Source: a bacterium (GTDB lineage: Bacteria; Patescibacteriota; Saccharimonadia; Saccharimonadales; Saccharimonadaceae). Taken from it: 43,447 nt of DNA. The notes beneath the pieces are model-generated. The model had not been told where the DNA came from. It was given only the letters and a program-made list of their open reading frames with translations, and made no database searches. Positions 16,628 to 23,875 of the stretch are shown one piece after another. The stretch is taken from NCBI GenBank assembly GCA_030427525.1, contig JAUIBD010000009.1, positions 1-43,447 on the forward strand, given 5' to 3'. The stretch's first letter is position 1. Each line of letters opens with the position of its first letter. The translations under genes were made by a program, and so were the position numbers.

Positions 16628-18292
16628 CTAAAGTTTTTCAGGTGCTTCTATGCCCAGCAGCCGCAAGCCATCTGCCAATGTGCCAATATACTGTTCAACC
16701 AAATACAACCGCTCCGCCTCGCGTTCGTCACCCACTATGCGTGACTTTTCGTAGAAACGGTTAAATTCTTGGGCTAGCTCGTACAAATACACGCATATTA
16801 GATGCGTCATTAGTTCTTTAGTAGCGGCTTCTACCACCTCTACGTATTCGCCTAGTTTCCGCACCAACGCCCGTTCGTTTTCGTCAAGGCTTTGTGGTCT
16901 CGCGGGTGTTGCGCTCGCTTTTTCATGAATACTGCAGGCCCTTGCGTGCGCATACTGAATGTAGGGGCCAGAATTACCGCTTAATGTCACCGTCTCATCT
17001 ACATCAAACGCAATATCGCCGCCAAACCTATACTTGGCGAACACATATTTTAGCGCGCCTAGTGCGACGGGCTCAACCAACGATTCGTCAGCCACCAGCT
17101 CGCGTACTTTTTCACGCACTATTTCTAGCACGTCTATCGCACGGCTTACGTTGCCCAGTCGTGAACTCATTTTTTTGCCATCACCAAACTTCACCGTACC
17201 GTTGGTCAGGTGTTTCATCTTTGCATCTATGCCTGGCTGAAATGTTTCAGCCGCAGCAAACACCACGCGCATATATTCTTTTTGGTCGTTGCCCGTTATT
17301 AAAATTCGTCGGTCAAAATTGTAGTCGGTTTGTTCCTGCCATATCACTCCAATGTCTTTTGTTTCATAGGTTGGCAAGCCTTTGCTGGTAATAAACACCC
17401 TAGTATGTAGGTGCTTACTCTCATCACCTTCAAACACCACCGCACCTTCAGACTTCTTCAAATTGCCTTTTTCCAGCTGCTCTTTCACTACTTCCATACC
17501 CGTAGGCGCAGTTTCACTTTCAGGGTAGTAACGTAGCGGCGCAACTTTCAGCTGTTTATAAAACGCGTCGAAATAGTCAAAACTCCACTGCCGTGTTTCC
17601 CAGTAAATTTTCGCTAGTGGGCTGTCGTGTTCGTTGTCATTATGAAAGCCATAAATTGTTTTGTTCAGTTCATCAATCTCTTGCTTGGCTTCGTCACTTT
17701 CCTCGTACGCTCCTGCGCCTCTCACGTAGCAATTGCTAATCCATCGCGCGCGCGCAAATGCATTACTACCCACAGTCTTTAGTTTTTCAGGTGCGATTTC
17801 GCCTAATTCTGCCACCATCCCCCATAAACATTTTGCTACGTGCAGGCCTACATCGCCACCAAAACTAGTGCGATGCACGGTAGCGCCGGCGTTTTCTATT
17901 AGCTTCGCTAATATATCGCCTGCAAATGTCTGGTACAAATGCCCGGTGTGTAGTTCCTTAAATGCGTTGGGGCAACTGTACTCCATTACGTACGAAATTC
18001 CTTCGTATGGCTTGCTTGGCTCGCGCCGTGCTTCTGCCAGCAATGCTTCGTCGCCCAGTGTTATGTTCAAGAACCCGGGGCCAGCTACAGTTACTTCGGC
18101 AAAATCATCAGTATCACGTAGTTTGGTTGCTATCTCCTCGGCAATTTCACGTGGGTTTTTACCCAGTGGTTTTGCTAGTTGCAACGCTACGTTCGTCGCA
18201 TAGTCGCCAAATTGTGCTTCAGGGCGTGTTAAAACAACTTCGATTTCTGTATCGAAGAGTTCTTTCACCACATCAGCAATTTGCTTGTTCAT
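16628..18292 (-). CDS. argS: Arginyl-tRNA synthetase
   Basis: 554 aa, class I enzyme charging tRNA-Arg. N-terminal Add-1 domain (1-95), HIGH-like motif in FKELHTGHLYQTF (about 112-124), the GGDVGLHVAK segment typical of ArgRS, a KMSK-equivalent KKMSSRLGN (about 374-382), and an all-helical DALR anticodon-binding domain from about 430 with YIQYAHAR before it. Full length. Predicted leaderless from TATACT at 18301-18306. Confidence 0.96.
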   Translation of the reverse strand: MNKQIADVVKELFDTEIEVVLTRPEAQFGDYATNVALQLAKPLGKNPREIAEEIATKLRDTDDFAEVTVAGPGFLNITLGDEALLAEARREPSKPYEGISYVMEYSCPNAFKELHTGHLYQTFAGDILAKLIENAGATVHRTSFGGDVGLHVAKCLWGMVAELGEIAPEKLKTVGSNAFARARWISNCYVRGAGAYEESDEAKQEIDELNKTIYGFHNDNEHDSPLAKIYWETRQWSFDYFDAFYKQLKVAPLRYYPESETAPTGMEVVKEQLEKGNLKKSEGAVVFEGDESKHLHTRVFITSKGLPTYETKDIGVIWQEQTDYNFDRRILITGNDQKEYMRVVFAAAETFQPGIDAKMKHLTNGTVKFGDGKKMSSRLGNVSRAIDVLEIVREKVRELVADESLVEPVALGALKYVFAKYRFGGDIAFDVDETVTLSGNSGPYIQYAHARACSIHEKASATPARPQSLDENERALVRKLGEYVEVVEAATKELMTHLICVYLYELAQEFNRFYEKSRIVGDEREAERLYLVEQYIGTLADGLRLLGIEAPEKL

Positions 18293-18300
18293 CGATATCT

Positions 18301-18306
18301 AGTATA
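18301..18306 (-). promoter_or_regulatory. -10 box of argS, leaderless
   Basis: TATACT 8 nt before the argS ATG. Confidence 0.5.
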
Positions 18307-18319
18307 CCAGAGGTGGCAA

Positions 18320-18484
18320 CTATTCGTTATAGCTCACGTCGCTATCGGCAGCTTCTTCAACTTCTGCCAGTTCGTATTGCAAACTAGAAACCGGGCTAAT
18401 ACCACGAATCGTATGTAACAGTTCGCGCAGCATGCTCATGTCGTCTAGCCCAGTGGTCGATTCGTCGTAGTTGTCTTCAGCCAT
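18320..18484 (-). CDS. 54-aa protein sharing its N-terminus and leader with the 557-aa gene
   Basis: Reads MAEDNYDESTTGLDD, then an amphipathic MSMLRELLHTIRG helix and an acidic tail ending DVSYNE. The first 15 residues match those of the 18769-20442 protein (MTEEQYDESTTRLDD), and the 40 nt upstream are also alike, including AAAACAAATATG at the start. It looks like a partial duplication of the larger gene, now a separate short gene with its own promoter. Function unknown. Confidence 0.6.
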   Translation of the reverse strand: MAEDNYDESTTGLDDMSMLRELLHTIRGISPVSSLQYELAEVEEAADSDVSYNE

Positions 18485-18509
18485 ATTTGTTTTTATACCT
18501 TATATTTTT

Positions 18510-18538
18510 ATTTTATCACGCTTGTGGTTTTTTGTCAA
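18510..18538 (-). promoter_or_regulatory. Consensus sigma-70 promoter of the 54-aa gene
   Basis: TTGACA (18533-18538), 17-bp spacer, TAAAAT (18510-18515). Confidence 0.7.
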
Positions 18539-18568
18539 TCCATACACGTTTTTTTGATACTATACAAA

Positions 18569-18597
18569 TACCCTCATGACGTTATAGCATGAGGGTA
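18569..18597 (-). terminator. Terminator after the hammerhead ribozyme
   Basis: 10-bp perfect stem (TACCCTCATG / CATGAGGGTA), 9-nt loop, followed on the minus strand by TTTGTATAG. It should end the transcript of the 557-aa gene about 170 nt after its stop codon. Confidence 0.65.
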
Positions 18598-18684
18598 AGC
18601 TCGTAGTGCAGTCAAAAGCCCTTGCCCATGTCCTACACAAACTCGAGAGGCAAATCTGATCTATAAAAACCTCCGACTACTGAC

Positions 18685-18739
18685 TGTCTGTTTCGTCGTT
18701 TCCGACTCATCAGCACGAGTACACACCCACGGACAGACA
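18685..18739 (-). ncRNA. Type III hammerhead ribozyme
   Basis: All core elements are present on the minus strand. Stem III: UGUCUG (18739-18734) with CAGACA (18690-18685). Cleavage triplet GUC with the cut after C at 18732. Stem I: CGUGGGU / ACUCGUG (18731-18725 / 18720-18714), loop GUGU. CUGAUGA at 18713-18707. Stem II: GUCG, tetraloop GAAA, CGAC (18706-18695). GAAA at 18694-18691. Three of the seven stem I pairs are G-U on this strand and would be A-C mismatches on the other, which supports function as minus-strand RNA. It lies 30 nt after the stop of the 557-aa gene and upstream of the terminator, so cleavage would trim the mRNA 3' end. Confidence 0.9.
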
Positions 18740-18768
18740 TTCCTAATTTCTCAGGTTTATATGTTACC

Positions 18769-20442
18769 CTATACACTCTGCCAGTCTCTGGCTAATTCCT
18801 GTGCCTTTACCCGAATTGTTGTTCTCATCTTGCGCAACACTTCTTTGTGTACTAGCTGAAAGCACCGCTCTGCATTTATATGTGCCTTTTTTAATTCGGG
18901 TGGGACCATGCGATCTATGTTCCAGTCTTTGTATTTTTCTCTAAACGTTATTAGCTCGTCCCGCTCGTCATATGCTTTTTTTAGACTATCAGACATCTCT
19001 ATGTGTTGCTGCGAACGTGCAGTCATAACATCAGAGTCTTCGCTGTAAGGTGCCTTCTGTAGCGCATCTATCCTGCAACGTAATGAATCCACTATTCTAT
19101 CGAGCTCTTTTATACTCTCTGGAGTTTCTTCTAATCTTTGTTTGATGGTTTCAGCAGTTTTTCTATAGTGCACATACAGATGAAAGTATCGAATCAGCAC
19201 ATCTAAGTGAATGTTCCTGTCTGCCCTTTCACGGTCATTCGATTCACGTAAATTCAAAATGTCATTCCGATACAAATCATCGAATTCTTCAGACCCAAAC
19301 CACTCGTTAAGTGCTGCAATAATGCCTTTTTCGTAGTCACTAGCCTCGCTTGGAACCTTTATTGGCTCCGGACGGAATAGTTCAATCAGTTGGTTTCTAT
19401 TGCTTTCGACTGTTTTATCAGTTACATTCACGAACTCTTTGCCTCGAAGGCAATGTAAGCCGTCCCTTTTCATTTCATCAGTAACATCAATACCACCGAT
19501 TCTTGCTTCAATTGCTGCTGCTTGAACTGGACTTATCATCTCGAGTAGCGAGATCAACTCTTTGCTCAAAACTACCATTCGACAAATATGACACGAATCG
19601 TTTACGTGGCCATCTACCCATTTGTCTACGTGGGTATTCGTTCGCGTCCCGATACAGTCTCCGTCATAATTCATCTGACGCGCCATATATTTAATGCGAT
19701 ACGTTCCGTCACCCATATTCTCTGGCTGTACACTCTTACTGAACACCGGTTGCTCTTTTTCATCTACAGGTACAAAATACAAATCATGCTCGATAGTGCC
19801 AGGTGCAGCAATGGTAGCCAAAACCTTTTCGTAAGTATCGTCATTCATCGCGGTTTCTAAAACTTGTTGAAAAAAGTCAGCGATTAGGTTGTTCCGGGAC
19901 GTTGACGTCTCCATCAGGCTTATCGCTCGTCTTGCTGCCTGATTGCGCCCAAACAAACCTCGTTCCGGAAATTGGTCAGTGCCACTGAGTCCTGCTTTGT
20001 TGATGCACAAAGCATGATAAGGGATTTCCACAAAGTCAACCGGATCCCTTTCCGTACCAAAAAGCTCTGAGGCTCTGGCAAAGCCCAACTCAAGCCATCC
20101 TGGCTTTTCATTTTCGCTCATACCGCTTACGTTCACAACAACACAACTCCCATCAAATGAAACAAGTGTGTTACCGACTGGCATTCCTTCAATACCAGAA
20201 AGTCGTACAGAATCCAACCGTTCCGTGACAACAGGCGGAGCACCCTCGCACAGCATGTAAAAACGCAGTATACTTTTCTCAAGCTGAGCTTGAGCAGCCT
20301 GAACCTCCGGTTTCGGCAGTACGTATTTATCGTTGTAACGCTGCAACTTATGTCTCAACCCAGCTTCAACATCCAACCGATTCATGTGTAAGTCAGCGTC
20401 GTCTAGCCTTGTGGTTGATTCGTCGTATTGTTCTTCTGTCAT
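18769..20442 (-). CDS. 557-aa protein of unknown function, hammerhead-tailed transcript
   Basis: Soluble, no membrane segment. The N-terminal half is mixed alpha/beta (VGNTLVSFDGSCVVVNVSG at about 89-107). A possible metal site lies at C263, H271, C284 and C287 (CIG..., H..., SCHIC). The C-terminal 250 residues are charged and helical, probably coiled coil (KQRLEETPESIKELDRIVDSLRCRIDALQ). I recognise no family. A start context AAAACAAATATG is shared with the 54-aa gene downstream and the 569-aa gene upstream, so the three seem to be a related accessory set. No clear promoter is seen directly upstream; it is 46 nt after the 569-aa gene and may be co-transcribed with it. The mRNA tail carries the ribozyme. 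Confidence 0.75.
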   Translation of the reverse strand: MTEEQYDESTTRLDDADLHMNRLDVEAGLRHKLQRYNDKYVLPKPEVQAAQAQLEKSILRFYMLCEGAPPVVTERLDSVRLSGIEGMPVGNTLVSFDGSCVVVNVSGMSENEKPGWLELGFARASELFGTERDPVDFVEIPYHALCINKAGLSGTDQFPERGLFGRNQAARRAISLMETSTSRNNLIADFFQQVLETAMNDDTYEKVLATIAAPGTIEHDLYFVPVDEKEQPVFSKSVQPENMGDGTYRIKYMARQMNYDGDCIGTRTNTHVDKWVDGHVNDSCHICRMVVLSKELISLLEMISPVQAAAIEARIGGIDVTDEMKRDGLHCLRGKEFVNVTDKTVESNRNQLIELFRPEPIKVPSEASDYEKGIIAALNEWFGSEEFDDLYRNDILNLRESNDRERADRNIHLDVLIRYFHLYVHYRKTAETIKQRLEETPESIKELDRIVDSLRCRIDALQKAPYSEDSDVMTARSQQHIEMSDSLKKAYDERDELITFREKYKDWNIDRMVPPELKKAHINAERCFQLVHKEVLRKMRTTIRVKAQELARDWQSV

Positions 20443-20488
20443 ATTTGTTTTTTATAACTTATACTTTTATTGCTTCACGCTTTAGCTG

Positions 20489-22198
20489 TTACGGTTGGCC
20501 GAGGAGTTCTTTTTCCCAGTCTTCTAGCATTGCAAATTGAGCCGCTTTTAACTCTTCATCAGTTAGCTGAAGTTCTTCACGGAATTTCCATAACAGGGGT
20601 AGTTTATTATCTATGAACAGCTGCATTACATTCCTCTTCCCTATTGCTTCTATAAGCTCTGGAAGTATCTTTTCTATGAAACTAGCATCTTGGTCTGTAA
20701 GACACTCAAATATTTGCCGAGAAAATTTTTTGTATTGCTCTTGTGAAAGATTGAGTACCTGGATCTTTTCAAGTGCGATCCATATATACCGACTACTAAA
20801 CAATGTCTCGAACAATTCATTTTTCTCCTGCTCATCCATTTGCTGAATGAATACATCAAGATGACTGCTAACAACCCTACTAAGGCCAGCGTCAAGCATA
20901 TGTTGAATTATTGCTCCTGCACCTTCTCTTGATGTTTCGATAATAGTCTTTATATCTGCATTACGATCACGACCATTTAGTAAGTTGCGAATTCTATCGT
21001 CCCGAATAGATATCGCACGTTCTACTCCGCTACAGTACAAAAAGTATAGGTTTTCATTAGAAAGCTGACCGCCTTCCTTCACCTTATGATCTATCGCGGC
21101 TAGTTCTTTGTTTAATTCTAATGTTCGATACGAATACTCACCGTTCGGAAGAGTTTTAAGTTTATCCATTGTGATATCAATCATACAATCTTCGATGTTC
21201 TGCCCAGGTAGAATCCCGCGGATTTCAGCTACGTTTTCATCTTCCATTCGTATTGCTATCCGTGGAGTTGTATACCGACCATCACTTCCTGCGCTGTAGT
21301 AAACAAAGAAATCGCCATTTTTGAGTTGGTATGATGCAGTGATCGAATTTGCCGTACACCAGCCTGTACTATGACCTTTTAACGACCCAGCGAGCCGTTT
21401 TGCTGTTTCACTAATGTTTATATCCTCTTCGTAGGATTCTTCAAGAGGATCATCACGCTCTGTTTGATGAAAGACTACCCACTCACCTCTTGTTTCAACC
21501 AAGACTTCTGATCTCGTGTCATCAAACTCCTCTAGATATTGGGCATACTGTTTGGCAAAGCTAGACAGGGGTTGCACTTTCCCACTGTCGGATGTACTAC
21601 TCGTTGCCTCAGCCATACCACCAAATACATTTGCTAGAACTTCCGCGTTTAATTCGGCAAACGGGGATACAGTTGTTTCAGTTCTCTTCCTGTAGACATA
21701 TCTCTTCTTGTCAAACGTACCCATCTTTAACACACCATCCCACACCATTTTTCTAAACCAGACAGGATACATTGCTACTACAGCATCACTTGAAAGATAT
21801 TCTGCCCATTCCGATAAGCTCTCTGCTTGCTCATCCCTTATCTCCTCAATCTTCGCTTGCCGAACGCGATCTGATATGTACACTTCGCCGTGGCCTTGAT
21901 CATAGGCGATTTGTCTTTGTAAATCAAAGTAACTCTCTGGTACGTTTTCTGGTTTCACTAAGTTATACGATATTTGTCTTTCAATACTAGCCTTATTACC
22001 AGTAAGTATACCGTCATTTACATACTCATCTGAGGCCAAGAACCCTAGATAAGCGCCTATCCTATCCGCAGGGTTGTCTGCAACTTTTTCACCATTTTGT
22101 CGTAGATAACGCACAGAGTCATCCACTTCAACTGATGTGTGGAACTTGGGATTTTGTCGATGCAGTATCTGTTCGCCTGCTAGATTTTTATGTGCCAT
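20489..22198 (-). CDS. 569-aa protein of unknown function with a GWCTA motif
   Basis: Soluble, acidic. The centre has STGWCTANS (277-285), an FFVYY strand, TPRIAIRMED (311-320) and AEIRGILPGQN (324-334). This order (Cys motif, short strands, R-G-N) faintly resembles the PcfJ-like core of conjugative plasmids and phages, but the usual histidine-cysteine pair is Trp-Cys here, so I do not assign it. The C-terminal 200 residues are helical and repeat-like. It has its own strong promoter with an overlapping palindrome and is probably the first gene of a pair with the 557-aa gene. Confidence 0.75.
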   Translation of the reverse strand: MAHKNLAGEQILHRQNPKFHTSVEVDDSVRYLRQNGEKVADNPADRIGAYLGFLASDEYVNDGILTGNKASIERQISYNLVKPENVPESYFDLQRQIAYDQGHGEVYISDRVRQAKIEEIRDEQAESLSEWAEYLSSDAVVAMYPVWFRKMVWDGVLKMGTFDKKRYVYRKRTETTVSPFAELNAEVLANVFGGMAEATSSTSDSGKVQPLSSFAKQYAQYLEEFDDTRSEVLVETRGEWVVFHQTERDDPLEESYEEDINISETAKRLAGSLKGHSTGWCTANSITASYQLKNGDFFVYYSAGSDGRYTTPRIAIRMEDENVAEIRGILPGQNIEDCMIDITMDKLKTLPNGEYSYRTLELNKELAAIDHKVKEGGQLSNENLYFLYCSGVERAISIRDDRIRNLLNGRDRNADIKTIIETSREGAGAIIQHMLDAGLSRVVSSHLDVFIQQMDEQEKNELFETLFSSRYIWIALEKIQVLNLSQEQYKKFSRQIFECLTDQDASFIEKILPELIEAIGKRNVMQLFIDNKLPLLWKFREELQLTDEELKAAQFAMLEDWEKELLGQP

Positions 22199-22211
22199 AT
22201 TTGTTTTAGAG

Positions 22212-22237
22212 GTTTATGCTTACATACTAGCATAAAC
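22212..22237. promoter_or_regulatory. Palindromic operator over the -10 of the 569-aa gene
   Basis: Perfect 9-bp arms (GTTTATGCT / AGCATAAAC) separated by 8 bp. The -10 box lies inside it, so a bound dimeric repressor would block the promoter. No repressor gene is adjacent. Confidence 0.6.
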
Positions 22238-22252
22238 ACTATAAAATGTCAA
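22224..22252 (-). promoter_or_regulatory. Consensus sigma-70 promoter of the 569-aa gene
   Basis: TTGACA (22247-22252), 17-bp spacer, TAGTAT (22224-22229). Confidence 0.7.
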
Positions 22253-22276
22253 GAGGTCGTACCAGAGATAGTAGGG

Positions 22277-23875
22277 CTAGTGCTTGCTAGCCCGGATGAG
22301 ACCGACAAACATCGGATGTGGTCGCATGGGTCGGCTACGAAACTCTGGATGTGCCTGCGTAGCCACAAAGTACGGATGGTTAGTGCCCTCAATATATTCC
22401 ACTAGCTTGCCATCTGGCGATGTGCCTGAAATAGTCAGCCCACCTGCTTCGATTTCCTTGGTAAATTTCTGGTTCACTTCGTAGCGATGCCTGTGGCGCT
22501 CGGTTGCTTTTTCGCTGCCATACACTTCGGCGATTTTAGAGCCGGCTTTCAGTTTCGCTGGGTAATCGCCCAAGCGCAGTGTGCCGCCAGTTGATTCCTT
22601 CCCTGCCTGACCTTCCATAATGTACACCACATCGTGTTTCGTATCTGGGTCTAGCTCGGTACTACTTGCGTCCTTCAGTCCTGCTTTGCGCGTGGCAGCC
22701 ACCACCGCCATTTGCAAGCCTAAGCAAATACCAAGGTATGGTTTGTTGTGATCTAACGCATAGCCAGCCGCAGCAATCTTGCCCTCTAGCCCACGCGTGC
22801 CAAACCCACCAGGCACCAGTATGCCATTCACACTGGCAAAGTCGTCATCACCCGCCGTTTCGGCGTTAATCCATTTAATTTCTAGTTCTGTATTCTCATC
22901 CCATGCAGCGGCTTTCAAGGCCTCTAGCACAGAAATGTAGGTATCTTCATTGTCCGTATACTTTGCCACCAGGCCTATTACTGCTTTGTGGGCTTTTTTC
23001 GCGCGCTGCTTTTTTACCAATTCCCGCCAGCCAGAGAGTTCTGGTTCTTTTGTCTCGCCAGTAAAGCTATCTAGCAAGTCCATCAGTGTGCTATTGGCAA
23101 TACCTTCTGGTATGCGGAACACACTGTCGACATTTGGCATCATCAGCACAGACGTTTCGGGCAAGCCGCCAAAGAGCGCAATCTTTTTGGCTATCGATAC
23201 AGGTGCTGGGTTATCGGTACGCACTATTACGGCGTCTGGCACAATACCAAAGCCACGTAGGTCGTTTAGTGCATTCTGCGCTGGTTTAGATTTAAATTCT
23301 TTACTGGTACCAATAAATGGCACGTACACCACGTGCACATACATGCAATTTTCGCGGCCCACACGTAGGGCAAACTCACGTATCGCTTCTACAAAGCTTA
23401 GGCCTTCGTAGTCACCCACCGTACCGCCAATTTCCACTATGTGAACGTCTTGGCCATGCCCTGCAATCACAATTGATTTTTGAATTGCGCGAGTTAAATG
23501 TGGCACCAATTGTACGGTTTTACCACCAAATTTGCCTGCCCGCTCGTCGGCTATTAGCTCAGACAGCAGTCTGCCCGAAAGCGTGGCGTTCTTCTGCGTC
23601 ATTTCTTCGTCTAAAAATCGCTCATAGTGCCCTAGGTCAAGGTCGGTCTCGGCACCATCTTTCGCCACAAAACATTCGCCATGTTCCGCGGGATTAAGAA
23701 GACCCGCATCTACATTCAGATACGGGTCACATTTTTGTATCGAAACGGCCAAGCCTTGAGCTTTTAGAACTGCTCCAATACTCGCGGCTGTTATGCCCTT
23801 TCCTACCCCCGAGAGAACTCCCCCCGTGACAAATATATATTTCTGTTTGCGCCCATGGCTTTTTGTGCTTTCCAT
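22277..23875 (-). CDS. pyrG: CTP synthase
   Basis: 532 aa, full length. Makes CTP from UTP, ATP and glutamine. Synthetase domain begins KYIFVTGGVLSGVGKGITAASIG (13-35), then KCDPYLNVDAGLLNPAEHGECFV and the EIGGTVGDYE Mg site. The glutamine amidotransferase domain (from about 295) has GGFGTRG and the nucleophile in YLGICLGLQMA; the His-Pro-Glu of the triad is in ATQAHPEF near the end. Predicted leaderless. Confidence 0.97.
   Translation of the reverse strand: MESTKSHGRKQKYIFVTGGVLSGVGKGITAASIGAVLKAQGLAVSIQKCDPYLNVDAGLLNPAEHGECFVAKDGAETDLDLGHYERFLDEEMTQKNATLSGRLLSELIADERAGKFGGKTVQLVPHLTRAIQKSIVIAGHGQDVHIVEIGGTVGDYEGLSFVEAIREFALRVGRENCMYVHVVYVPFIGTSKEFKSKPAQNALNDLRGFGIVPDAVIVRTDNPAPVSIAKKIALFGGLPETSVLMMPNVDSVFRIPEGIANSTLMDLLDSFTGETKEPELSGWRELVKKQRAKKAHKAVIGLVAKYTDNEDTYISVLEALKAAAWDENTELEIKWINAETAGDDDFASVNGILVPGGFGTRGLEGKIAAAGYALDHNKPYLGICLGLQMAVVAATRKAGLKDASSTELDPDTKHDVVYIMEGQAGKESTGGTLRLGDYPAKLKAGSKIAEVYGSEKATERHRHRYEVNQKFTKEIEAGGLTISGTSPDGKLVEYIEGTNHPYFVATQAHPEFRSRPMRPHPMFVGLIRASKH

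Follow-up and report, generated by a model that had tools for sequence, protein, structure and literature searches.

In the window (the whole 43,447-nt stretch of Saccharimonadaceae DNA analysed here, from an ultrasmall Saccharibacteria species), the minus strand between pyrG and the housekeeping gene argS carries two orphan genes, a complete type III hammerhead ribozyme, a conserved motif, a hairpin and a short conserved reading frame (Table 1). pyrG and argS adjoin throughout the genus, and in relatives the interval holds other genes or almost nothing, being nearly empty in 3 of 12 genus members. Neither orphan gene and no hammerhead occurs at the pyrG-argS or argS neighbourhood of these 12 members, which bears out the accessory nature that an earlier sequence-only reading had attributed to the region. 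The segment lacking a counterpart in the closest relative, G012, takes in the two orphan genes together with the hammerhead and its downstream motif.

Among 200 genomes searched, the 557-aa protein is encoded in the window's own genome alone. The 569-aa protein combines a part common to Saccharibacteria genera (residues ~1-425) with a variable C-terminus, and no hammerhead was found within the ~1.5 kb read on each side of the genes for its relatives. The locus had been connected with phages and mobile elements, but neither protein has a Pfam match, a convincing PHROG match or a relative among 50,697 phage records. These searches leave a phage origin of the two proteins unsupported, and nothing in these neighbouring accessory proteins places the hammerhead in a prophage or near an integrase. 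As a separate observation, the leader and first codons of the 557-aa gene (20400-20460, minus strand) resemble the start of the 54-aa gene (18430-18500), with 46 of 54 bases matching the G012 copy of the latter, which looks as though a copy of that gene's 5' end had been fused to the orphan.

The ribozyme lies on the same strand as the 557-aa gene, as had been read, and begins 29 nt past its stop codon, with the predicted cut 37 nt past it. The terminator reported farther downstream turned out to be a hairpin with a poor U tract, absent from the terminator-scan list; it may act as a weak terminator or may belong to the motif element.

Table 1. Features of the hammerhead locus in the window
Feature	Position	Strand	Evidence
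argS, housekeeping gene downstream	16628..18292	-	Pfam DALR_1, tRNA-synt_1d, Arg_tRNA_synt_N
Conserved 54-aa reading frame between accessory segment and argS	18320..18484	-	Aligned in G012, visible in G009
Segment without counterpart in G012	18543..22277	-	DNA similarity resumes at 18542, ends at pyrG stop
Hairpin TACCCTCATGC...GTCATGAGGGTA	18570..18597	-	Sequence; not in terminator-scan list
Conserved motif downstream of hammerhead, AGATCAGATTTGCCTCTCGAG	18642..18662	-	6/295 family genomes
Complete type III hammerhead ribozyme	18685..18739	-	cmscan RF00008, 41.9 bits, model 1-54/54
Stem II GUCG-GAAA-CGAC (4 bp, GAAA loop) and core GAA	18692..18706	-	Sequence; stem II cells 100% paired, 35 copies
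Catalytic core CUGAUGA	18707..18713	-	CUGAUGA in 54/59 copies
Stem I CGUGGGU-GUGU-ACUCGUG, 7 bp, three G-U	18714..18731	-	Sequence; covarying helix
Predicted self-cleavage site, C17 (18732) / C1.1 (18731)	18731..18732	-	Inferred from hammerhead scheme
Stem III 5' strand UGUCUGU, partner ACAGACA 18685-18691	18733..18739	-	Sequence; covarying helix, 35 copies, 98.6% of cells paired
557-aa orphan gene	18769..20442	-	No Pfam match; no relative in 200 genomes or phages
569-aa gene, patchy Saccharibacteria family	20489..22198	-	8/151 genomes including own; 38-48% identity, better matches

Results

When positions 18300-19100 (801 bp) were compared with all of Rfam using cmscan, a single match was returned, to RF00008 on exactly 18685-18739, with an E value of 1.3e-7 (6.9e-6 when scored over the whole 43-kb window). 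Its 41.9 bits fall short of the Rfam gathering score for this family (48.5 bits), which is a curation rule and no biochemical property, so a default Rfam scan reports nothing at this site; a relative with the same flanking downstream motif reaches 50.1 bits, above the cut-off. Read on the minus strand from 18739 to 18685, the element runs UGUCUGU C^CGUGGGU GUGU ACUCGUG CUGAUGA GUCG GAAA CGAC GAA ACAGACA, where the caret marks the expected cut. Stem III is open and has 7 bp (6 plus the core pair A15.1-U16.1), stems I and II are closed by loops, and all helices are paired along model positions 1-54. The core has CUGAUGA, GAA, the A15.1-U16.1 pair and the cleavage triplet GUC, and loop I with its closing pair included reads UGUGUA. 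The sequence-only reading had called a complete type III hammerhead here from its GUC, its CUGAUGA, a GAAA-capped stem II, a stem III and a stem I with three G-U pairs, had placed the cut at 18731/18732, and had proposed the Rfam covariance model as a check. All of these parts are present, the same cut position follows from the hammerhead scheme, and the model matched over its full length with every core base in place, though below the gathering score.

A score under the Rfam cut-off would fit a chance resemblance to a hammerhead, but the E value over the window, the covariation of the family (below) and 400 random windows without a comparable match refute that reading, whose probability we regard as negligible. 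These Markov-1 windows were built with the dinucleotide make-up of the real window; the strict motif finder gave three weak matches in them and none at a score of at least 14, and the real copy scores 17.4. By motif finder and Rfam scan, the window holds one hammerhead only. We conclude that 18685-18739 is a genuine, complete type III hammerhead, for which self-cleavage is predicted.

The same genome contains two further copies, C19 (37.5 bits) and C2 (22.9 bits), the latter reading as a full hammerhead with the cleavage triplet UUA. Hammerheads occur in 6 of 14 genomes of the genus, in 55 of 394 of the family (E ≤ 1e-3; up to eight per genome, several in arrays) and in 25 of 380 of the phylum (E ≤ 1e-4), spread over ~18 families. 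The phylum of a Paenibacillus genome, taken for comparison, has them in 5 of 398 genomes, though these are ~3 times larger (Fisher p 1e-4). Three loci (L042 in G038:C13; L040 and L041 in G225) are arrays of small orphan genes, several of which have their own hammerhead behind them.

Covariation was assessed on 35 copies aligned without reference to structure. Both sides had changed in 17 of the 21 pairs, and the covariation score was 0.656, compared with 0.200 for shuffled alignments and at most 0.11 with the partners slid. The 99% of cells found paired is biased upward because the copies were originally found with structure-aware tools, a bias that leaves the variety of pair types unaffected. 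CUGANGA is present in 59 of 59 copies by construction of the motif finder. When two species of genus g36 are compared, the hammerhead ahead of rpoB shows 2 differences in 51 positions, neither of which disturbs the fold, and the preceding gene differs by 8%. The loops UGYGUR and NAAA are kept throughout the family and suggest a tertiary contact between loops I and II. Such conservation is to be expected for a loop-loop contact of the kind present in the sTRSV ribozyme, whose loop I, as in the window copy, begins UGUG.

The copy in the window is a poor example of this family. Its three G-U pairs in stem I are the most among 59 copies, a rival hairpin, ACUCGUGCUGAUGAGU, sequesters the core, and the hammerhead fold exceeds the minimum by 5.6 kcal/mol, a gap larger in only one other of the 59; in 40 of the 59 this fold lies within 1 kcal/mol of the minimum, under an energy model that omits tertiary contacts. 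The hairpin upstream is weak (z -2.1), and the motif downstream has no clear closing stem. By these folding predictions, the window copy may be slow or decaying, and its cleavage is likely weaker than in relatives. That it is a relic or a slow ribozyme contributing little, in a family that is itself active, strikes us as possible but rather doubtful: the core bases are all intact, the stems are all still paired, loop-loop contacts outside the energy models can favour the active fold, and no relative with the same gene is at hand to reveal decay. The real finding is the family rather than this single copy. Both the predicted misfolding and the membership in a family-wide pattern had escaped the sequence-only reading, whose observation is confirmed and whose interpretation is partly supported.

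The RNA just upstream of the ribozymes is strongly structured. Over the 80 nt upstream, the median z against shuffles was -3.6, with 62% under -2.5 (n = 58); the 80 nt downstream fold no better than shuffles (median z -0.4), and control windows after other genes of the same loci gave a median of -0.94. A U tract (at least four T in 6 nt) follows the upstream hairpin in 2 of 57 cases. Because it is absent in the other 55, these hairpins are not plain terminators; the family's upstream hairpins lack the combination of hairpin and U tract that marks an intrinsic terminator. The same pattern is seen in other Patescibacteria (n = 15) and in viral contigs of IMG/VR (n = 52). In these viral sequences the stop codon is followed first by the hairpin and then by the ribozyme, which starts a median of 32 nt past the stop. 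Their hairpins have a 0-nt spacer to the ribozyme, 95% of them ending at most 3 nt away from it (45% in shuffles). In Saccharibacteria such closeness (within 3 nt) is not above shuffles (37% against 43%); an exactly abutting hairpin was accordingly dropped there, and since exact distance does not exceed shuffles, stability alone is claimed for the hairpin in this group. Two further observations concern these hairpins. An upstream hairpin, TGGCAAGTGGATATGGGTT...TGTCTGCTTGTCA, is alike across several genera and behind different genes (L009, L043:9066, L098, L100, L113), and 49 IMG/VR viral contigs (L121-L169) have near-identical hammerheads with directly abutting hairpins, ten of them carrying two or three.

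Placement was counted over 59 distinct family copies. A same-strand reading frame ends within 300 nt upstream in 42 of them and starts within 300 nt downstream in 36; about a quarter lack an obvious same-strand gene ahead. At most 5 of 39 upstream proteins have a Pfam match (NUDIX, ThiF, glycosyltransferase, alpha-CTD-like protein), compared with at least 17 of 34 downstream proteins (p 8e-4). The latter include RpoB, DnaK, TruB, an RlmH-like SPOUT methyltransferase, RfbC, a class I tRNA synthetase and an RNase_T exonuclease (orn frame). Many of the upstream genes are much higher in G+C than their surroundings. Certain spots recur, namely before orn (six genomes, three genera) and before argS (the window, G113 and G087), and in genus g16 each member has a different sequence just ahead of orn, mostly an accessory gene. 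From this contrast of flanking genes and the recurrent spots, the ribozyme therefore appears to mark the point where an exchangeable gene gives way to its neighbour, which is often essential. At the g16 orn loci (L170-L182), varied accessory genes stand directly ahead of orn, and many of their stop codons fall near its TATACT-like box; these loci, together with the window argS, read as hot spots at which genes are inserted ahead of housekeeping promoters.

Several copies lie 1-26 nt ahead of a start codon (H33, H36, H42, H51, H54, H55 and H56), a position equally compatible with a role in the 5' leader of the downstream gene, where cleavage would give a fixed 5'-hydroxyl leader and tune stability or translation. 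The 36 copies with a same-strand gene downstream would agree with this, as would RiboJ, an engineered relative that increases expression of the gene following it (PMC6206723). However, argS in the window starts ~390 nt away, past a separate 54-aa frame that has a promoter-like site of its own; the box resembling a promoter at rfbC comes after the ribozyme; and the strong structure lies 5' of the ribozyme. We consider a leader element improbable.

One locus offers a natural exchange of terminator and ribozyme. Ahead of rfbC, G002 has a NUDIX-like gene followed by a hairpin and then a hammerhead, and G005 has the same gene (82% identity over 574 bases) but with an intrinsic terminator, GAGCGCACC...GGTGCGCTCTTTC, at its end. 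The gene is missing from G007, where similarity to G002 starts 13 nt past the hammerhead. Sequence comparison at this one case supports the view that a terminator and the hairpin-hammerhead pair are functionally equivalent, and it places the ribozyme right at the boundary of the segment that was exchanged.

Such a position could also mean that the ribozyme belongs to transfer machinery, processing a cassette RNA to a circle or unit length in order to move accessory genes, as in retrozymes, in which type III hammerheads are likewise associated with mobile DNA (PMC7761336). The company of exchangeable genes, the hot spots before orn and argS recurring in several genera, the gene-by-gene arrays in G225 and G038, and flanking motifs common to several genera all fit this. 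However, a segment mostly has one copy rather than a flanking pair, the hairpin is on one side only, and phage contigs show the same layout without cassettes; no reverse transcriptase or other retroelement was seen adjoining, nor, in a non-systematic look, an integrase. Retrozymes have two direct copies flanking a unit, and the window has a single hammerhead. We judge transfer machinery to be quite improbable. Integron-like cassettes, considered because of the arrays and the shared upstream hairpins, are kept only as a rival.

A second conserved element accompanies a subgroup of the ribozymes. In all six carriers among 295 family genomes, the AGATCAGATTTGCCTCTCGAG motif follows a hammerhead that is on the same strand, and a search of genome contigs placed it at one unrelated site besides. 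A 17-nt motif, CAGATTTGCCTCTCGAG, is also present in G113, G253, G230, G299 and G240 (L097, L055, L044, L099 and L094). In five of six copies, as judged by eye, two helices that vary in sequence and keep their pairing enclose the 17-nt core, which has UGU or UCGU opposite it; in the window copy the closing helix is doubtful. The RNA has no Rfam match at gathering level, and the motif with its covarying helices is a candidate for an undescribed structured RNA. A match in IMG/VR without a hammerhead was judged to be due to chance, and so was a match in Paenibacillus.

Discussion

We propose that mRNA 3' ends are made by the ribozyme, with hairpin plus hammerhead replacing a terminator and separating an exchangeable gene from the next one, and give this proposal an even chance of being correct. 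The hammerhead would belong to the 3' untranslated region of a gene that is both orphan and exchangeable. Transcripts reading through from this accessory gene would fold and cut themselves, in the window between 18732 and 18731. Of the two products, the accessory-gene mRNA would acquire a defined 3' end carrying a 2',3'-cyclic phosphate, and the RNA downstream, now separate, would bear a 5'-hydroxyl. In most copies from Saccharibacteria, the hairpin 5' of the ribozyme would cap the new 3' end, and the stem of this hairpin should resist 3' exonucleases. It is from this hairpin-capped, defined 3' end that the notion of a terminator substitute derives: the end would be made after transcription, and the next gene would be insulated from its new neighbour. 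For the window copy, cutting the mRNA tail of the 557-aa gene is the most likely act predicted from its sequence. Cleavage in cells, protection of the 3' end and insulation of the next gene are what we infer from the observed sequence and covarying fold, the placement where accessory genes meet housekeeping genes, the hairpin and the single terminator swap. More tentatively, Saccharibacteria, other Patescibacteria and phages might share this hairpin-plus-hammerhead manner of making 3' ends, with one subgroup, which includes the window, adding a second structured RNA that works together with it and has a 17-nt internal loop, CAGAUUUGCCUCUCGAG, between covarying helices; this fuller version is perhaps rather unlikely.

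The ribozyme itself resembles the sTRSV-type hammerhead (RF00008) in its type III topology, CUGANGA/GAA core, GUC triplet and 4-bp stem II. It differs in lying on a bacterial chromosome behind an orphan gene, in having GAAA or AAAA as loop II, and in scoring just below the curated cut-off. Prophage hammerheads have been described that flank single genes or short blocks; cleavage in E. coli was demonstrated for one set, and it was proposed that long transcripts are thereby converted to single-gene mRNAs (Perreault et al. 2011, PMC3088659). Several hammerheads around single genes or short blocks are likewise seen here, but on Patescibacteria chromosomes, at a border of orphan and housekeeping genes, and with a hairpin lacking a U tract on the 5' side of the ribozyme; a search of the text of that paper (PMC3088659) found no mention of a 5' hairpin or of terminators. 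RiboJ, an engineered sTRSV hammerhead plus hairpin, finds use in bacteria as an insulator and increases transcript levels about twofold (PMC6206723). It too divides a transcript from the preceding sequence by means of a hammerhead and a hairpin, but its hairpin is 3' and protects the downstream RNA, whereas the natural arrangement described here has the hairpin 5', where it would protect the upstream RNA.

Conclusions

The kind of ribozyme is canonical, and its proposed hairpin-guarded use at gene ends in Patescibacteria is a new variant as far as the literature searched shows, in which no open-access paper mentions Saccharibacteria together with 'hammerhead ribozyme'. The candidate phyla radiation is thereby added to the known carriers of hammerheads. 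A 2017 review named the role of prokaryotic hammerheads as an open question of the field (PMC6155905); the recurrent layout, the natural terminator swap and the same layout in phages make that role directly testable. The recurrence of the arrangement after unrelated accessory genes in Saccharibacteria and phages suggests that mRNA ends are trimmed by ribozymes instead of being set by a normal stop of transcription. If this is true, foreign genes could be inserted ahead of essential genes without disturbing them.
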